DNA from: an uncultured SAR86 cluster bacterium | GTDB taxonomy: Bacteria; Pseudomonadota; Gammaproteobacteria; Magnimaribacterales; D2472 | Assembly (NCBI GenBank): GCA_902557575.1 | Contig: CACEAR010000001.1 | Span: 186,001-250,000 of the forward strand | Direction: 5' to 3' | DNA: 64,000 nt | Position numbers and translations under genes: made by a program | The notes under the pieces: generated by a model | Databases searched by the model: none | The model's input: the letters and a program-made list of their open reading frames with translations, nothing else | Told to the model about the DNA's origin: nothing | Part shown: piece by piece, positions 10,232 to 17,889 of the stretch | Layout: each line of letters begins with the position of its first letter | How positions within the stretch are numbered: the stretch's first letter is position 1

Positions 10232-12058
10232 ATGTGTGGAATTATTGGAGCAACCTCATCGAGGAGTGTAGGTAAGATCTTAATAAAAGGTCTTCATGCT
10301 ATGGAATATAGGGGTTATGACTCAGCAGGCGTTGCTCTCAACCAAGACAATGAAGTCTTCAGACTTAGATCATTAGGAAAGGTTTCATCCCTTGAAGAGC
10401 TAATGGTCAATAATAAGCCAAAAGCAAATTCTGGAATAGCTCATACAAGATGGGCAACTCACGGGGCCCCATCAGAGGAAAACGCTCACCCTCATGGCTC
10501 ACATAATGAAATCTATATTGTTCATAATGGAATAATAGAAAACCATGATGAAATTAGAGATAAACTTAAAAACAAAGGTTATGACATTGCTTCTGAAACT
10601 GATTCCGAGCTTATAGCTCATTTAATCTACTTAAATAAAACAGACTCACTCTCAACTCTTGAGGCCCTAATAAATGCTACCAAAGAACTTAAAGGAGCTT
10701 TTTCAATAGCTGCCATATCATCAAAAGAAAAAGGCAAAATATATGCAGCTAAACAAAAGAGCCCACTATTGATTGGAAAAGGTATTGAAGAAAACTTTAT
10801 TGCATCAGACCCATTAGCGATTGCCAATATAACCGAAAAGTTTTATCTGCTGGAAGATGGAGACTTTGCAGAAATTACAGAAAATGACATTAAAATTTTT
10901 AACAGTAATGGTGAACCCGTCCAAAGAGAAGAGACAAAAATAGATGCAACACCAACATCGACAAACAAAGGCAACCACTCACACTTCATGGAAAAAGAGA
11001 TTTATGAGCAACCAGATGCACTAGGAAACACTATAAACGGTAGACTTGGTGAAAATGATGTCTTAGATAATATTTTTGGTTTAGGTTCTAGTGATGCATT
11101 CGAAGGTGTAAAAAGGATTCAGTTTGTGGCATGTGGCACCAGTCTTCATGCAGCAAAAACTGCCAGAAAGTGGTTTGAAGACATATGTGAAATTCCTTGC
11201 TATGTAGATTTTGCAAGTGAGTACAGATACAGGAATCCAATCGTTGAAGAAAATACCCTCTTTGTAACAATATCTCAGTCTGGTGAGACAGCTGACACAC
11301 TAGCTGCTTTAGAATATGCGCGAGCTGAAAAGTATATTGGTATCGTGACAATATGTAATGTTCCAACAAGTACCATGGCGAGAGAAGCTGATTGGAAGAT
11401 ATTCACTAATGCAGGGCCTGAAATAGGAGTTGCATCAACTAAAGCTTTTACCACTCAATTAGCTGCTTTGCTGATGCTCGCTCTATCAATTGCAAAATGC
11501 CAAGATAAAAATGCTGATAAAAGAAAACAAGCAACACAAGAACTAAGGGAAACCCCAGCATTGGTTGACCAAACTTTTAATTTGAAGGAAAACATTTCAC
11601 AAATAACACAAAACATCTCGACGAAGCACAACGCATTGTTTTTAGGAAGAGGAATGTATTTCTCCATCGCACAAGAGGGAGCACTTAAATTAAAAGAAAT
11701 ATCCTATATTCATGCTGAAGCATATCCAGCAGGAGAGCTAAAGCATGGACCTTTAGCCTTGGTTGATGAGCAAATTCCAGTTATAGCTCTTGCTCCTGAG
11801 GATAGCTTGGTTGAGAAACTTTTATCAAACCTCGAGGAGGTAAAAGCTAGAGGGGGGACCCTATATGTTTTTGGAAATGCGAACTCAACTATTGAGATAA
11901 GTAAGGGAAAATTTATAAATATGCCTGATTGCGGAGATTACAATGCACCAATTATTTACACCATACCACTGCAAATACTGGCCTATGAAGTAGCTTGCCT
12001 AAGAGGGACAGACGTAGACCAACCAAGGAATTTAGCTAAATCAGTCACGGTCGAATAG
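10232..12058 (+). CDS. glmS: Glutamine-fructose-6-phosphate aminotransferase (isomerizing)
   Basis: First committed step of amino-sugar synthesis: fructose-6-phosphate plus glutamine gives glucosamine-6-phosphate. The N-terminal MCGIIGA supplies the Cys nucleophile of the glutaminase domain. AMEYRGYDSAG and HTRWATHG follow, then two SIS domains (VACGTSLHAAKTARKW and GRGMYFSIAQEGALKLKEISY). The protein ends RNLAKSVTVE, the universal GlmS tail whose codons are the TnsD target of Tn7. It is 608 aa. No glmS ribozyme precedes it: only two nt separate it from glmU. Accessory DNA starts right after the stop. Confidence 0.98.
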   Translation: MCGIIGATSSRSVGKILIKGLHAMEYRGYDSAGVALNQDNEVFRLRSLGKVSSLEELMVNNKPKANSGIAHTRWATHGAPSEENAHPHGSHNEIYIVHNGIIENHDEIRDKLKNKGYDIASETDSELIAHLIYLNKTDSLSTLEALINATKELKGAFSIAAISSKEKGKIYAAKQKSPLLIGKGIEENFIASDPLAIANITEKFYLLEDGDFAEITENDIKIFNSNGEPVQREETKIDATPTSTNKGNHSHFMEKEIYEQPDALGNTINGRLGENDVLDNIFGLGSSDAFEGVKRIQFVACGTSLHAAKTARKWFEDICEIPCYVDFASEYRYRNPIVEENTLFVTISQSGETADTLAALEYARAEKYIGIVTICNVPTSTMAREADWKIFTNAGPEIGVASTKAFTTQLAALLMLALSIAKCQDKNADKRKQATQELRETPALVDQTFNLKENISQITQNISTKHNALFLGRGMYFSIAQEGALKLKEISYIHAEAYPAGELKHGPLALVDEQIPVIALAPEDSLVEKLLSNLEEVKARGGTLYVFGNANSTIEISKGKFINMPDCGDYNAPIIYTIPLQILAYEVACLRGTDVDQPRNLAKSVTVE

Positions 12059-12059
12059 A
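12044..12059 (+). repeat. glmS 3'-end repeat, copy 0 (native end of glmS)
   Basis: GTCACGGTCGAATAGA encodes the last GlmS codons V-T-V-E-stop. Two near-identical copies, at 15268-15283 and 17027-17042 in the same orientation, flank accessory gene blocks. This native copy differs from them by two and three bases, and most differences are at third codon positions. Confidence 0.8.
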
Positions 12060-12060
12060 T

Positions 12061-12870
12061 TTAACCCAACTCTGCAATTAGTGGTGAGTGATCGCTAATT
12101 TTTCTTGTTCTTGGTTCTTGATCATAAAACACATTATCAACTCTCATATTAGATGAACAGAAAATATGATCATATCTTCTGCCAACACCCTTATTAGTAA
12201 ACCAACTAAAAGACTCTTTCTCATAACCATGTTGAGATCTAAATACATCCTTCATGTCTAAATCTGTATGATTTTCAATAATGTTTCTTTCAGCAAGATC
12301 CCATCTTTCACCAGTACACTCATCCTTCCACTTGGGATTAACAGCAATTCTTACTTTCCCATTTGAGTTTACTTTTTGACCCCAGGTTATAACTTCACCA
12401 GACATCAACTCTTGTTTTGGTGAATTAAAGTCGCCAGTCAGTATCATATTCTTAACACCCCTTTGTGATAGAAATTTATACAGACCCTCAAAGTGTTCAA
12501 CTTTAATAACTCCATTCGATGACCCTGGTGGAACATGGGTAGTGTGAACTTCATAATCCTGTATAGAACAAGATAAAACCCTTTCAGGAAAAGGAACTGG
12601 AGCAAACTCCTCTATATTAATAATAGGACTTTTAGAGATTATTATTTGACCATATTTTCTTTTATTCACTAATACAGACTTATCTTTAACCAAGTCGAAA
12701 GAACATATAACACTCTCATTGGCAAAATAGTCTTTTATAAAACCCTCTGAACCTAAAAGAACTTCTTGAAGTGTGATTATGTCAAAGTCTCCTTTTCTCA
12801 AATAATCACATTGTTCAGTTAAATCTTTTTTATTTGTTCGTGAATTTAAATTCCAAGTTATTACTCTCAT
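12061..12870 (-). CDS. Endonuclease/exonuclease/phosphatase (EEP) family protein
   Basis: A 269-aa protein with the full set of EEP-fold signatures: ITWNLNSR at the N-terminus, DIITLQEVLL with the metal-binding glutamate, THVPPGSS, LTGDFNSPK with the catalytic Asp and Asn, and KISDHSPLIAEL with the C-terminal Asp-His pair. Members hydrolyse phosphodiesters in DNA, RNA, inositol phosphates or lipids; the sequence alone does not say which. There is no signal peptide. It converges on glmS, its stop lying two nt from the glmS stop, and is the first gene of the accessory block. Confidence 0.8.
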   Translation of the reverse strand: MRVITWNLNSRTNKKDLTEQCDYLRKGDFDIITLQEVLLGSEGFIKDYFANESVICSFDLVKDKSVLVNKRKYGQIIISKSPIINIEEFAPVPFPERVLSCSIQDYEVHTTHVPPGSSNGVIKVEHFEGLYKFLSQRGVKNMILTGDFNSPKQELMSGEVITWGQKVNSNGKVRIAVNPKWKDECTGERWDLAERNIIENHTDLDMKDVFRSQHGYEKESFSWFTNKGVGRRYDHIFCSSNMRVDNVFYDQEPRTRKISDHSPLIAELG

Positions 12871-12984
12871 AAAAACATTCTAACTTATGCGATAATCAAT
12901 AAATGTTAAATATTGGGTGGGTTAAGAACAATCCGTTGCTTTTGAATAGATCAAGATGCACAATTTTTATATAGGGAGAAGAAA

Positions 12985-13149
12985 ATGAGATTTAGCATTT
13001 CGACAATAATTGGAATTATTTTGGGCGTATCTACATTCATGTTTTTTGTTTCTAATGTAAGACCAGTGGGTTGGTTTGACTCGTTAGTAGGCATGATATT
13101 GGGCGTGGTAGTTTTTATAGTTGTTAAAAACTTTAAAGGGTTTAAGTAA
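12985..13149 (+). CDS. Small membrane protein, 54 aa
   Basis: Starts at ATG behind a strong ribosome site (AGGGAGAAG, spacing 3-5 nt). It encodes two hydrophobic segments (about residues 5-22 and 33-47) separated by the short loop VRPVGWFDS and ends in a lysine-rich tail. The gene is isolated between the divergent EEP gene and the DNA methyltransferase. I do not recognise a family. The ribosome site and clean two-helix pattern make it likely to be real. Confidence 0.6.
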   Translation: MRFSISTIIGIILGVSTFMFFVSNVRPVGWFDSLVGMILGVVVFIVVKNFKGFK

Positions 13150-13210
13150 AACAACCTTTTGACATAATAAGTTACAATTAATTTTAGACCATCAATATTA
13201 AATAATTGAA

Positions 13211-14104
13211 TTGAAAACATTTATAGATCTTTTTGCTGGAATCGGAGGATTTCATTTTGCCTTTCACAAGTTGGGTCTTGAATGCGTTTTTGCCTCAGAA
13301 ATAGAGGAGGGTGCAAGAGAAGTATATATAAAGAATTTTAAAAAAATCTCTCCTTCTTTATTCAGCAACGATTTATTGTTTAATAGAGATATTTACGACC
13401 TAAATGTAAATGATTTGCCAGATTTTGATATATGTTGCGCTGGATTCCCGTGTCAACCATTCAGTCAAATTGGACATAAGAGAGGTTTTAAAGAAAACTT
13501 TGAAGGAAGAGGAAACCTTTTTTTCGAAATTGAAAGAATCATTAAAGCAAAGGAACCCAAAGCATTTTTCTTGGAAAATGTTCAGCATTTAATTAATCAT
13601 GACAACGGAAGAACATTTAAAATCATCAAGGATAGAATTGAAAGTTTAAATTACTCTTTTTACTTCAAGAAAGTTAGAGCATGTGACTTTAATCTTCCTC
13701 AACTCAGACCAAGAACCTTCATGGTTGGGTTTAAAGGAGAGCAAGAAAAAGATAAGCATTTTAAATTTCCTGATCCAGTCCCGCTCAAAAAGACAATGTC
13801 AGATGTTTTTGGTGGCAAGTGCTCAAGGGAGATTGGTTTTACGCTAAGACTCGGTGGAATGGGTTCAAATATTAATGATAGAAGAAATTGGGATTCTTAC
13901 CTTGTAGACGGAGAGGTTGTAAAACTCCAACCAGAACATGGAAAAAAAATGCAGGGATTTCCTAAAAATTTTTATCTCCCCAAGTCAAGAACAAAGGCGC
14001 TCAGATTGCTTGGAAACAGTGTGGCAGTTAATGCCGTTCATGCAGTTGGCAAGCAAATGATTTCATACATTGAAGAACCTGATAGTTTCAGAAGTACTGG
14101 TTAA
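13211..14104 (+). CDS. DNA (cytosine-5-)-methyltransferase
   Basis: A 297-aa C5-cytosine methyltransferase. Motif I is FIDLFAGIGGFHFAF (residues 4-18). Motif IV is GFPCQPFSQIG with the nucleophile Cys81, motif VI is ENV (residues 122-124), motif VIII is QLRPR (164-168), and motif X is LGNSVAVNAVHAVG near the end. The target recognition region between VIII and IX is short, about 60-80 residues, so the recognised site is probably simple. The start is TTG at 13211; an upstream TTG at 13206 runs into a stop. The next gene in the same direction looks like a nuclease, so this is probably the modification half of a type II system. Confidence 0.9.
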   Translation: MKTFIDLFAGIGGFHFAFHKLGLECVFASEIEEGAREVYIKNFKKISPSLFSNDLLFNRDIYDLNVNDLPDFDICCAGFPCQPFSQIGHKRGFKENFEGRGNLFFEIERIIKAKEPKAFFLENVQHLINHDNGRTFKIIKDRIESLNYSFYFKKVRACDFNLPQLRPRTFMVGFKGEQEKDKHFKFPDPVPLKKTMSDVFGGKCSREIGFTLRLGGMGSNINDRRNWDSYLVDGEVVKLQPEHGKKMQGFPKNFYLPKSRTKALRLLGNSVAVNAVHAVGKQMISYIEEPDSFRSTG

Positions 14105-14164
14105 CTAAGCATAAATTAAACTATTCAATACTAAGAAAGAATCCAAAATAAATTTTTATTAAAG

Positions 14165-14189
14165 TTAGCAATCTCTTCAAGATTGCTAA
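14165..14189. repeat. Perfect 10-bp inverted repeat between methyltransferase and candidate nuclease
   Basis: TTAGCAATCT (14165-14174), a 5-nt loop, then AGATTGCTAA (14180-14189), a perfect palindrome with no following T-run. It lies 28 nt upstream of the candidate nuclease start. It could be an operator or an mRNA hairpin that delays nuclease expression; an intrinsic terminator is less likely without the T-tract. Confidence 0.6.
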
Positions 14190-14216
14190 ACACAAATTCT
14201 GTTATTATTAATCTCT

Positions 14217-15203
14217 ATGCTAGATATTGATTTAAAGACTGAAGAGTGGGCAAAGACTTTTTATAAAGAAATAAATTTAGATGACATATCTATAAAACCT
14301 TCATACAAAGATCTTGTGTGGGAAACATTCTCAGAAATGGGAATTCTTAATAAATACATGACAGGCGACTCGGTTGAATCTCTGCCTAGAAACAGTGAAT
14401 CAGAAAATTTAAATGGACCAAAGTTTTCTGATGCTTTCCACTTTCTCAATAATCAAATGATAGTCTCTCCTGGACTTTACCTTGCATACATTTTGAATGA
14501 ATATATGGATAAAAACTTAGATAAGAAATTGTTGACAGGATACTTATCAAGAGCATTAAGATCATTTGCATCGTTTATGCGAGAACCAGATCTTGCCTAT
14601 AAACTCAAAACCTGTCTTAAGAAGGACTGCGACAATGTAACTGTTAACATGGATCCTAAACAGGATATAAAAGGACACGTAGATATTCTCGTTTCATACA
14701 AAAGCAGAATATTTAATATATGGTCTTATCAAGCGACAAGAAGAGGGTTGCCTAATACGATTGACAGACTTAGTGGCAATAGGGGCGAAATATGCGATGG
14801 TATTAACATCCTGTGCCCATTAAAAACAGAAGATGCTCAAAATCTTGTTAAGAAAAAAAACAGCATTCTAAAAAAACGCAAACAAATTAAAAATTGGGAG
14901 AATGAATTATTATCAAGTCCCACACCCAGCAGAGAAATTAAACTTAGAGAATTGTTAGAAAAAAATAATAAAATATTAATCGAAATGAAAGAGCAACTTA
15001 ACTCTTTATACAATGATCTTTCAGAAGAAGTCATTATAAAAAATAATTGGTTTTTACATGCAGAAAATTATGTTAACTCTGTTAAAAACATGATGGATAA
15101 ATATTTACAAGAAGAATCTCAGTATATAGAGTATGACGAATTGAAAAGAATTATTCAGGGTCCAGAAGTTTTTGTAAAAAATATAAATATTTTTTCAAAA
15201 TGA
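14217..15203 (+). CDS. Candidate type II restriction endonuclease (unclassified)
   Basis: A 328-aa soluble protein directly downstream of the cytosine-5 methyltransferase on the same strand. I do not recognise a named family. Residues 150-172 read as a degenerate PD-(D/E)XK core: DIKGHVDILV with Asp156 at a strand end, then RIFNIWSYQ where the usual (E/Q)-x-K would sit (here W-S-Y-Q). A conserved-looking ATRRGLPNTIDRLSGNRGE follows. Residues 210-275 form a charged coiled coil. GC is very low (15 of 60 bases in 14221-14280). Position next to the methyltransferase is the main support for a restriction role; a methylation-linked protein of another kind is possible. Confidence 0.5.
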   Translation: MLDIDLKTEEWAKTFYKEINLDDISIKPSYKDLVWETFSEMGILNKYMTGDSVESLPRNSESENLNGPKFSDAFHFLNNQMIVSPGLYLAYILNEYMDKNLDKKLLTGYLSRALRSFASFMREPDLAYKLKTCLKKDCDNVTVNMDPKQDIKGHVDILVSYKSRIFNIWSYQATRRGLPNTIDRLSGNRGEICDGINILCPLKTEDAQNLVKKKNSILKKRKQIKNWENELLSSPTPSREIKLRELLEKNNKILIEMKEQLNSLYNDLSEEVIIKNNWFLHAENYVNSVKNMMDKYLQEESQYIEYDELKRIIQGPEVFVKNINIFSK

Positions 15204-15259
15204 AACTATCAAAGAAACAAAAACTGATGAACATATTGAAAAAAGATAATTTGGTTATG

Positions 15260-15283
15260 TCTACTCTGTCACGGTGGAGTAGA
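15260..15283 (+). repeat. glmS 3'-end repeat, copy 1, with hairpin
   Basis: GTCACGGTGGAGTAGA (15268-15283) reads S-V-T-V-E-stop in the frame of the preceding TCT codon, the same peptide as the GlmS C-terminus, with synonymous changes (GTC to GTG, GAA to GAG). The copy is also the right half of a hairpin: TCTACTC (15260-15266) pairs perfectly with GAGTAGA (15277-15283). It separates the restriction-modification block from the sulfotransferase block. Confidence 0.65.
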
Positions 15284-15301
15284 TAAAGGTGTCTACATAA
15301 T

Positions 15302-15460
15302 ATGAGTAAAAAATTATTAATTTCTAACTCAATCATGTGGGCAGCAGCAATCCTTGTTGTTGCTATAGTTGAAGAAAAACAGTTCGCAATTTTGATGCTT
15401 GTTGTATTAGCAACAACTTCATTAATGTTTTTAAAGAAAGGAAATGAGCAACAAAAGTAG
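15302..15460 (+). CDS. Small membrane protein, 52 aa
   Basis: ATG at 15302 to TAG at 15458-15460. The peptide has a hydrophobic segment at about residues 11-22 (IMWAAAILVVAI), a charged turn (EEKQ), and a second hydrophobic segment at 29-43, then a KKGNEQQK tail. This two-helix pattern is common among tiny inner-membrane proteins of marine bacteria; I know no function. It starts 18 nt after the copy-1 glmS-end repeat. Confidence 0.55.
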   Translation: MSKKLLISNSIMWAAAILVVAIVEEKQFAILMLVVLATTSLMFLKKGNEQQK

Positions 15461-15506
15461 ACAGTTAAAACTAATCAGCTACAGTCGAATGATAAGGAGT
15501 TGACAT

Positions 15507-16310
15507 CTGTTTAAGCACATTCACATTGTTGCCTGCTCGCCGCGATCCGGTACTACTCTCTTGCATGAGGCGATGGTCAGTTGTTTTCGGACAAACAAGC
15601 ATTATGACCATGAGATTCGCTTTCACCTCGTAACCGCAAAAAACAACGATGTGGTTATCACGAAACGACCCAAAGATACGTTGTACATGCCAGGAGTCAT
15701 CGACGATCCTAATCTCTATGTCATTTACGTAACGCGCGATCCACGTGATGTCATCGTTAGCCGGCATGGTAAGAGCGAGGATATGTACTACTCGAACATT
15801 AGACTTTGGCGTGAACTGCATGCCTGTGCACGCCCATTGTTCGGCCATGATCGTTTTCTCAATATCCGGTACGAGGATTTCGTAAATAACCCTGACGCCA
15901 CACAAAGCCAAATCACTGCAAAATTTCCATGGCTTGAGAAACAACACAAATTTTCTGAGTACCATGAACACGCGCAAGTGTCTGAAAAGTCAAAAGTTGC
16001 AATGCACGGCGTACGTCCTATTGGACCGACCAGTGTCGGTGTCTGGCGAAAACATCTCGGTCGCATCGTTCAACAACAGGCAATCCACGGCACAATGACA
16101 CCAGATCTGGTCGGTTGTGGATACGAATCATCGCCGGATTGGGAAGTTGTTCTGGACGGCGTTTTACCGGATAAATCTAACAGTCGGTATCCGGAGAAAA
16201 AACGTTTTTGGCAGAGAATTTTGCAATCCATTGATGCTTCTAGAAAAATAGCTATCTATCGGCGCAAGAAAGGACTTAGTCGAATCAGCGGAGCAACCAA
16301 TGATCGTTAG
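15507..16310 (+). CDS. PAPS-dependent sulfotransferase, apparently CTG-started
   Basis: Transfers sulfate from PAPS to an unknown acceptor. With the start at CTG 15507, the 267-aa protein begins MFKHIHIVAC and contains the 5'-phosphosulfate loop PRSGTT at residues 12-17, then the 3'-phosphate motif TRDPRDVIVSRHG at about 76-88 and the NIRYEDFV strand. The nearest in-frame ATG/GTG/TTG is TTG 15561, which would delete the PAPS loop. An in-frame TGA (15501-15503) precludes a longer N-terminus. AAGGAG at 15494-15499 lies 7 nt before the CTG, ideal spacing. GC is visibly higher (28 of 60 bases in 15661-15720) than in neighbours, indicating transfer. It overlaps the next sulfotransferase by 11 nt. 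Confidence 0.8.
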   Translation: MFKHIHIVACSPRSGTTLLHEAMVSCFRTNKHYDHEIRFHLVTAKNNDVVITKRPKDTLYMPGVIDDPNLYVIYVTRDPRDVIVSRHGKSEDMYYSNIRLWRELHACARPLFGHDRFLNIRYEDFVNNPDATQSQITAKFPWLEKQHKFSEYHEHAQVSEKSKVAMHGVRPIGPTSVGVWRKHLGRIVQQQAIHGTMTPDLVGCGYESSPDWEVVLDGVLPDKSNSRYPEKKRFWQRILQSIDASRKIAIYRRKKGLSRISGATNDR

Positions 16311-16998
16311 CCATGCAAAGAAGTTTATTTTCGTAAAGACCCGTAAAACCTCGGGCACAAGCATGGAGGTTAGTCTGAGCCAAGTCTGTGGTCCTGATGA
16401 CATCATCACTCCGATATCATTTGAAGACGAACTCGTCAGGCTGGACATGGGCGGCACGTTACCTCAGAACTACGCTGGTCTTGGAGAGCAGCGATATCGC
16501 GATATGATAAAGGCACGCAAGATGAAATTTTTACGCGCCAGACGCCGTGGCAAGTTTTTCAACCATATGCCGGCTGTTGCGATTCGCGAGCACGTCGGCA
16601 AAAAAACTTACGATGATTACTTCACTTTTTCGATCGAAAGGCATCCATACGAAAAGGTTGTATCACATATCTATTATCATGCGCGCGGAAAAAAGAACTG
16701 GAGTTTTGACAAGGAGCTTGAGCGTGTTTTGAAGAAGAAACATTACGTCAATTACCCAACCTATTCAGACGGTGAAAAACCTATTGTCGATTTCATTGTC
16801 AATTTTGACAATATGCAGGAAGACCTCACAACCCTCGGCGACAGGCTTAAATTTGATATTGTCGCGCACTATCCACAAACCAAACACAAATTCCGAACTA
16901 ACAGAAGGCCTGCATCCGAGCTGTTGTCGCAGAAAGTAAAGGAACAAATATATAAGAACTGTAGGATCGAGTTCGATGCAATGGGTTACGAGCGTTAG
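16300..16998 (+). CDS. Sulfotransferase family 2-like protein
   Basis: 232 aa with the N-terminal nucleotide loop KFIFVKTRKTSGTSMEVSL (residues 8-26), where the K-T-S-G-T-S pattern replaces the P-R-S-G-T-T of the upstream gene. The 3'-phosphate region is FTFSIERHPYEKVVSHIYYH in the middle, and FFNHMPA is typical of this group in marine bacteria and phages. It probably sulfates a cell-surface or capsule glycan; the acceptor is unknown. It starts inside the end of the first sulfotransferase, so they form a two-gene operon, and it shares its higher GC. Confidence 0.75.
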   Translation: MIVSHAKKFIFVKTRKTSGTSMEVSLSQVCGPDDIITPISFEDELVRLDMGGTLPQNYAGLGEQRYRDMIKARKMKFLRARRRGKFFNHMPAVAIREHVGKKTYDDYFTFSIERHPYEKVVSHIYYHARGKKNWSFDKELERVLKKKHYVNYPTYSDGEKPIVDFIVNFDNMQEDLTTLGDRLKFDIVAHYPQTKHKFRTNRRPASELLSQKVKEQIYKNCRIEFDAMGYER

Positions 16999-17026
16999 CA
17001 TGATCACGACAAGACGAAAACAATCC

Positions 17027-17042
17027 GTCACGGCGGAGTAGA
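17027..17042 (+). repeat. glmS 3'-end repeat, copy 2
   Basis: GTCACGGCGGAGTAGA reads V-T-A-E-stop in the frame of a preceding TCC (Ser) and CAA (Gln). It matches copy 1 at 15 of 16 positions, and AATC upstream also matches the native glmS end. It ends the higher-GC sulfotransferase block; native-like low GC resumes at once. Confidence 0.65.
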
Positions 17043-17063
17043 AGGAAATAGAGAATAGCAATT

Positions 17064-17174
17064 ATGGAATTTTGGGATAATATTAACAATGTACTTGACG
17101 TAATAACTGTCTTTATAGTGATTGCAATATTATTTAAAATTTCTAAAACACTTTTCAAAAATAATGGTAATTAA
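17064..17174 (+). CDS. Tiny membrane peptide, 36 aa
   Basis: ATG 17064 to TAA 17172-17174, followed without a gap by the next ATG. The peptide has an acidic start (EFWDNINNVLD), one hydrophobic helix (about residues 12-24) and a lysine/asparagine tail. The exact abutment TAA-ATG with the next gene suggests coupled translation. Family unknown. Confidence 0.45.
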   Translation: MEFWDNINNVLDVITVFIVIAILFKISKTLFKNNGN

Positions 17175-17570
17175 ATGAGCGAACTAAACAAACAAAACAA
17201 GATAATTACTTATATTTTTGAATTGGGACTCATTAAAAGCGTAAATGAGACTAAACAGTTTATGAGGGAAAATTCTTCTCCCTATGTTTTTAATTGCTCA
17301 GAACCCAAAACCATAAGATTTGAATGGTTTCTATCCGAAGATGAGAAGTCAGCAACATTAATAGAAATGTTTGAAGATAGCGATGCTGCCAAATTAAGAT
17401 TAGAAAATCACTCTGAAAGTCATCTTGTTAAAGAGTTTCCAGAATATTTTGAAATTAAGAACTTTATTGTTTTGGGAGACATTAAACCTGACATGAAGGA
17501 TAAGTTAGCGGACTGGAATGCAGATTTAAGAGGAAATGTGGGTGGTTTTTTTAAAGGGTTGAACAAATAA
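17175..17570 (+). CDS. Putative antibiotic-biosynthesis monooxygenase-like (dimeric alpha/beta barrel) protein
   Basis: 131-aa soluble protein. Residues 45-105 resemble a ferredoxin-like dimeric barrel of the ABM/quinol monooxygenase type: a strand (IRFEWFLSEDEK), then LIEMFEDSDAAKLRLENHSES with the histidine typical of that group, and the end strand IKNFIVLGDIKP. Members range from cofactor-free monooxygenases to proteins of unknown role, so the activity is open. Confidence 0.5.
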   Translation: MSELNKQNKIITYIFELGLIKSVNETKQFMRENSSPYVFNCSEPKTIRFEWFLSEDEKSATLIEMFEDSDAAKLRLENHSESHLVKEFPEYFEIKNFIVLGDIKPDMKDKLADWNADLRGNVGGFFKGLNK

Positions 17571-17601
17571 TGAGAAATCTTGCTACAAACACTCTGCCAA
17601 A

Positions 17602-17889
17602 ATGGAAATAAACTGGGTAGTAGTTGGTTGGATTATTGACATGATCTTAAATGGGTTCATCTGGCTTATCATTGCTATACTTTCCCTGCTATTGATTGAT
17701 GCGACTGACAAATGGACAAGAAAAGCGATTAAATTTATGGATAAAGCTGATAAATGGATTAGAAAACTTACAGAACACTCATTTGATTGGGTAGAAAAGA
17801 AAAATCTTCAGATACCCGCTAGCATTATATTGTTAATTATCTTTGGAACCCTATCTCAACTAGGGATAATACCTAAATTAATAACTTAA
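17602..17889 (+). CDS. Hypothetical membrane protein, 95 aa
   Basis: Two hydrophobic segments (about residues 5-30 and 72-90) flank an amphipathic, tryptophan- and lysine-rich middle with the repeated pattern DKADKWIRK/DKWTRKAIK. I do not recognise the family. It lies eight nt before the NTF2-like gene on the same strand and is likely in the same transcript. Confidence 0.55.
   Translation: MEINWVVVGWIIDMILNGFIWLIIAILSLLLIDATDKWTRKAIKFMDKADKWIRKLTEHSFDWVEKKNLQIPASIILLIIFGTLSQLGIIPKLIT

Follow-up and report, generated by a model that had tools for sequence, protein, structure and literature searches.

Downstream of glmS in an uncultured SAR86 cluster bacterium lies an array of gene cassettes separated by copies of the last bases of glmS itself. 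The window analysed here is the whole 64-kb stretch (contig CACEAR010000001.1, positions 186,001 to 250,000), and the named sequences closest to its glmS come from SAR86 cluster genomes, both single-cell and metagenome-assembled. An earlier note on this DNA had reported that the glmS tail recurs at 15268-15283 and 17027-17042 in the same orientation, and both copies are indeed present on the + strand. A weight matrix for such cores, built from other genomes with this genome left out of the training, adds cores at 12935 and 15478 that the note had missed, which brings the count in the window to four cassettes or more, in place of two blocks. The glmS gene and its five cores are as follows.

10232..12058, + strand: glmS; open reading frame ending in SVTVE-stop, its last codons being the chromosomal attachment site
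12044..12059, + strand: core 0, GTCACGGTCGAATAGA; glmS tail and left array border (attL-like), with the crossover dinucleotide AC within GTC-AC-GGT
12935..12950, + strand: core 1, GTTGCTTTTGAATAGA, diverged; 19.1 bits, fourth-best in the window
15268..15283, + strand: core 2, GTCACGGTGGAGTAGA; 36.9 bits
15478..15493, + strand: core 3, GCTACAGTCGAATGAT, diverged; 13.2 bits, fifth-best in the window
17027..17042, + strand: core 4, GTCACGGCGGAGTAGA; 32.6 bits

After these five the next + strand matrix score in the window is −0.1. At up to two mismatches TCNGTNACNGTNGARTAG has five matches in the window against 0.37 expected, a number reached in 0 of 100 shuffles, and exact matches to GTCACGGYSGARTAG occur in the 1.16-Mb genome just at 12044, 15268 and 17027. 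The base changes among the copies, described before as mostly synonymous, do fall on third codon positions with the exception of GTC to GCG in the third copy. The idea that the copies are the ends of different glmS genes fails, as the downstream copies have no resemblance to glmS upstream of the core, where the left arm is part of the preceding cassette. The copies are attachment cores, the right half keeping the V-E-stop of glmS and the left half being the cassette's own arm. A further fossil core at about 17571-17612 is possible by eye, without a matrix score.

Arrays across the SAR86 lineage

The comparison covered 107 genomes of the family, the DNA downstream of glmS in 68 genomes, 203 genomes of the order and 274 across the class; glmS homologues are present in 85 of the 107. 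Insertion at the glmS end of successive blocks, each with a glmS-like attachment end, had been put forward from the window, and such serial arrays are borne out in the 68 related genomes. Of the 107 family genomes 55 have matches to the pattern GTNACNGTNGARTAGA, clustered on one strand in groups of as many as five, and the reversed control gave hardly any; the matrix at a threshold of 12 bits finds 234 forward sites against one reverse site downstream of glmS in the 68 genomes (0-1 in reversed or complemented controls). Downstream copies, one to ten in each, occur in 65 of these 68 genomes, with at least two in 54 and ten in one genome, and 87% of the downstream sites lie within 5 kb of glmS. 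Among the 274 class-wide genomes the present one alone, and none outside SAR86, showed two clustered copies of the tested pattern; one other genome in that scan has two copies, but on different contigs.

Arrays are also found at other loci with a SAR86-like glmS. In L223, a single cell deposited under the name SAR92, the first cassette measures 248 bp and matches one in SAR86 genome G078 at 97.7% identity; the glmS of this cell reaches no more than 71% identity to those of SAR86. Among contigs assigned to viruses, L243, L287, L264 and L269 have glmS genes, and the sequence following glmS is common to L243 and L287.

Cassette units, their movement and the exchange point

The DNA between sites is organised in cassette units. 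There are 237 between-site segments with a median length of 642 bp, and the start and end of a cassette are inverted repeats centred between A and C of GTN-AC-NGT. Pairing of the arms averages 8.97 of 15 positions within a segment, compared with 5.86 at junctions and 5.88 (standard deviation 0.12) when shuffled, and at least 11 of 15 pairs are reached by 112 segments against 18 junctions. The arm sequences vary among cassettes, with 54 different arm strings in the well-paired ones. Among the cargo families in the 82 array proteins scanned are restriction endonucleases, of the HNH and other kinds, and modification proteins of types I and II, and the arrays also carry sulfotransferases and many small membrane proteins.

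These units change neighbours and pass between lineages. Among 35 cassette families found in at least two genomes the left neighbour varies in 33 and the right neighbour in 29, and pairs of genomes that differ by presence or absence of a cassette between the same two flanks were found. Cassette identity lies more than 10 points above host glmS identity in 128 of 163 cassette comparisons; the fourth cassette of the window, present in 10 genomes, is about 96-99% identical where the host glmS DNA is 62-67% identical.

The similarity of shared cassettes stops at the core, and where just the left cassette is in common identity is kept through position 4 and lost from position 5. Linkage of the core to the left cassette is 0.84-0.92 at position 2 (against 0.37-0.42) and falls to 0.20-0.26, which is no left linkage, at position 5, whilst linkage to the right cassette is 0.86-0.95 at position 11 and is firm from there on. 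In viral contigs L268, L286 and L277 a single element family sits at glmS in three different hosts: at the left end the host codons differ left of AC and the element is identical from AC onward, and at attR, seen in L268 and L286, the identity of the element extends through ATCAC, after which each host's own tail follows. Because of the linkage data and these junctions the crossover is bracketed to AC and its immediate neighbours. The positions at which non-coding copies of the core vary (−4, −1, 2, 5, 8, 11 and 14) correspond to wobble positions in glmS, and the other core bases are nearly fixed, and so the recombinase probably ignores the wobble positions.

The cassettes of the window and their genes, with the features just beyond, are listed here.

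12060..12934, about 0.89 kb: cassette 1; arms TTTAACCCAAC / ATTGGGTGGGTTAAG, 9 of 15 arm pairs
12061-12870, − strand: endonuclease/exonuclease/phosphatase gene of cassette 1 (PF03372, 2.3e-14)
12951..15267, + strand, about 2.3 kb: cassette 2; no clear arm pairing, 4 of 15 arm pairs
12985-13149: 54-residue membrane protein of cassette 2
13211-14104: C5-cytosine DNA methyltransferase of cassette 2 (PF00145, 1.6e-69)
14217-15203: 328-residue protein of cassette 2, directly after the methyltransferase in gene order
15284..15477, + strand, about 0.2 kb: cassette 3; arms GGTGTCTAC / GTAGACAG, 10 of 15 arm pairs
15302-15460: 52-residue membrane protein of cassette 3
15494..17026, + strand, about 1.55 kb: cassette 4; arms without clear pairing, 6 of 15
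15561-16310 and 16300-16998: two sulfotransferase-like genes of cassette 4
17043..17600, + strand: probable cassette 5; small membrane open reading frame and a 131-residue protein (17175-17570), the right core decayed (by eye, no matrix score)
17602..17889, + strand: 95-residue membrane protein MEINWVVVGW..., found in 35 genomes and often near the array end

Cassette 1 recurs as the third unit of the array in genome G002 and mid-array in G037. Cassette 2 is possibly a composite, and its 328-residue protein, for which family searches gave no match, is a candidate, unproven restriction partner of the C5 methyltransferase; an AlphaFold prediction of it run without an alignment had a predicted local distance difference test (pLDDT) score of 44 and was not used. 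The G+C content of cassette 4 is 45.6% against 36.3% for the window. The right half at the start of probable cassette 5 also follows a core in G002 and G008. An Rfam search found nothing. The MEINW gene was considered as the chromosomal right border and rejected, since it stands between cores in G017, G028 and G035. Cassettes starting with different arms (in G001, G040, G062, G078, G083, G103 and G104) share an inner stretch of approximately ...AACCTCGCATTCTGCGGGGGT, which looks like an intrinsic terminator just past glmS, and several of them have the inner end CAGAAATAG in common.

Large serine integrases and putative helper elements

Genes for large serine integrases lie beside such attachment sites. 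The G084 array begins with an element of 6.05 kb whose arms are GTTTAGTCGGTCTTTC / GAAAGACCGATTAAAC; it encodes a large serine integrase of 551 residues, the gene for which stops about 40 bp short of the right core. Viral contig L248 has an integrase gene, its N-terminus cut by the contig end, and immediately after it a complete palindromic and unrecombined attP with core GTTACTGTGGAGTAG. In L268, L286 and L284 integrases of 563-603 residues are encoded at or near the far attachment (att) site and the other end of the element is a glmS tail, with more DNA beyond the far att site in L284. The serine integrase domains PF00239, PF07508 and PF13408 are found at the sites in G084, L268, L286 and L284, and the G084 and L248 integrases share 26% identity across 442 residues. 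In the elements of G084, L248, L268, L286 and L284 the arms show 18-20 paired positions out of 26, compared with 7-10 at random, and integrase-less cassettes in G078 and G079 bear the G084 arms, as is seen less clearly, with more mismatches, in G064. The best NCBIfam model for the integrases is CcrB, of the staphylococcal cassette chromosome (SCC) type SCCmec, G084 reaching 80.8 bits where the cut-off is 900.

A viral scan with the G084 integrase gave no relative and one with the L248 integrase gave L248 alone, and most other viral matches to the pattern were ordinary glmS genes or chance. L273, a mirror-image contig, was left out of the evidence. Serine recombinases of G079 and G088 were set aside, being outside the glmS arrays and with a C-terminal reading that suggests a tRNA-like site. 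Two more SAR86 large serine integrases (L238:9136-10713 and L239:322-1881) are located away from the glmS array; their frames end in a VELRGIEPRTPC-like peptide, and the sequence suggests that they may target a tRNA gene.

The integrase frames L248:53-1858 and L284:2028-3839 run into or through the att site, and so integration would alter the C-terminus of the integrase, a change that is a possible direction switch. Two of the integrase-bearing contigs also have a second gene, for a small serine resolvase/invertase (L268:410-1015, L248:4741-5280). Genes for a T4 gp62-like clamp-loader subunit are seen at L248:9473-9868 and L253:163-549, both contigs having glmS-type att cores, and hint at satellites of T4-like phages. 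The suggestion in the earlier note that the elements may be satellites is thereby supported in part only.

Origin of the arrays and relation to known systems

The favoured explanation, given a probability of roughly 0.84, is that the region is a mobile gene cassette array placed at the glmS 3' end by a large serine integrase. Its attB would be the last glmS codons, the first and second base of each codon being read and the wobble base probably ignored. The attP would be a palindrome of about 50 bp formed where the ends of a cassette meet in a presumed circular intermediate, and both sites would be exchanged at the central dinucleotide AC. The incoming right half-site restores V-E-stop, and so glmS stays intact; repeated insertion at the same spot would then stack cassettes downstream of it. 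For the integrase-less cassettes the enzyme would be supplied in trans by rare helpers of 6-10 kb, of the G084, L248, L268/L286 and L284 type.

Several findings weigh against this explanation. The integrase gene is present in one of the 68 arrays and, among the 203 genomes of the order, near glmS solely in G084, which leaves a serine integrase no more than a candidate for the enzyme at work on most cassettes; for most arm sequences no matching integrase is known. Fewer than 11 of 15 arm pairs are seen in 125 of the 237 segments, two cassettes of the window among them, for which decay, composite segments or another mode may be the cause. Positions 5 and 8 of the core partly follow the right cassette (0.54-0.63), which a clean 2-bp exchange leaves unexplained. 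The majority of the genomes are single-cell or metagenome assemblies.

Other origins have to be set against these data. A tyrosine recombinase acting, as in integrons, on single-stranded hairpins from the palindromic ends would account for arms that are diverse in sequence yet kept in pairing, and small-cassette arrays behind a fixed first site do resemble integrons. However, exchange is at the symmetry centre and position 5 has no left linkage, the intact sites are adjoined by serine and not tyrosine integrases, and Xer queries found no tyrosine recombinase among the array open reading frames. Nearly all genomes have just two PF00589 proteins, fitting XerC and XerD, with a third in a few. The integron integrase model TIGR02249 at 1e-40 had no match in the 107 genomes in a search without a positive control. 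An integron-like origin is very improbable. Slightly less probable again is that cassettes of various origins were rearranged by homologous recombination, either at the short repeats or through cassettes present in both partners: the repeats are direct and common, and part of the neighbour exchange may arise in this way, but diverged 16-bp cores are poor substrates for homologous recombination, shared cassettes cease to be similar at the core, arms pair within units, and one element family has the same edges in the three hosts of L268, L286 and L277.

The glmS 3' end is the target of Tn7, which speaks for TnsD-guided transposition to attTn7 with the glmS bases as a duplicated TnsD target. Against it, the arms abut the core rather than lying about 25 bp downstream, they vary among cassettes, and right halves restore V-E-stop; TniQ was not found in the 107 genomes, where no positive control gave a signal either. 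Such an origin is scarcely credible. Remnants of glmS-end duplication, or chance likeness, can be regarded as refuted: third-position changes do resemble codon evolution, but the downstream copies lack glmS similarity upstream of the core, and chance is ruled out by the shuffle, whole-genome, reversed-pattern and matrix controls.

We conclude that large serine integrases built these arrays, mostly in trans, with excision and the trans step being what we infer. SAR86 bacteria are among the most abundant in the surface ocean and have streamlined genomes in which gene gain is poorly known. The glmS arrays offer a defined entry point for genes, a rule by which cassettes can be delimited and a gene pool common to distant lineages, and the gene end to which the serine integrases here are directed is widely conserved. 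A role in phage defence would fit the cargo sampled, in which restriction-modification proteins and DNA methylases stand beside many small membrane proteins. No description of glmS arrays in SAR86 was found in the open-access papers searched.

Serine integrases in general use attP and attB sites of up to about 50 bp with inverted repeats and a central dinucleotide (PMC4111918). Elements of this kind share with the SAR86 arrays a protein with Resolvase, Recombinase and zinc-ribbon domains next to the att site (in G084, L268, L286 and L284, and absent from the window's array), palindromic att sites and a central 2-bp crossover, the exact 2 bp here resting on sequence comparison. Phage replication genes on some att-core contigs recall serine integrase phages and their satellites; most SAR86 cassettes, in contrast, are without an integrase, and phage genes were not noticed among their cargo, the sole genes related to a phage satellite being the gp62-like clamp-loader genes on L248 and L253. 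Integrons likewise line up small cassettes after a fixed site and have palindromic ends, with a recombinase supplied in trans, as would be the case here, but the SAR86 core is GTNACNGTNGARTAG with no GTTRRRY/RYYYAAC attC, the palindrome is split over both cassette ends and the sites are serine integrase sites. The likeness to integrons is confined to the layout. With a little less than even odds, the arrays may be a serine-integrase counterpart of the integron in SAR86, that is, a lineage-wide and long-lived arrangement in which single-gene cassettes line up at an essential gene and are mobilised wholly in trans by several helper integrases of different arm specificities through one wobble-blind glmS site.

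Large serine recombinases place SCC elements at the 3' terminus of a conserved gene, with direct repeats and terminal inverted repeats, and composites with tandem integration-site copies as well as pseudo-SCC elements without ccr are known (PMC3900703, PMC6222049). Elements of the Enterococcus cassette chromosome (ECC) use serine recombinases, form circular intermediates and have att sites with dyad symmetry (PMC6222049); that study did not directly observe ECCs in tandem with multiple ccr genes. The SAR86 arrays resemble SCC and SCCmec in their direct-repeat att sites, in the inverted repeats at the ends and in tandem composites with recombinase-less units. They differ in the target, glmS rather than the rlmH (orfX) 3' end, and in having no ccrA/ccrB or ccrC in the window. 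They differ also in the size of the units, mostly 0.4-1.2 kb and holding one gene or two, as against tens of kb, in an integrase nearly absent from host genomes, in many arm types, and in a gammaproteobacterial host. From ECC, whose elements are from about 21 kb up, they again differ in target. The arrays thus work like SCC and ECC islands, the closest known kind, without belonging to them, the target, the recombinase family and the size being different.

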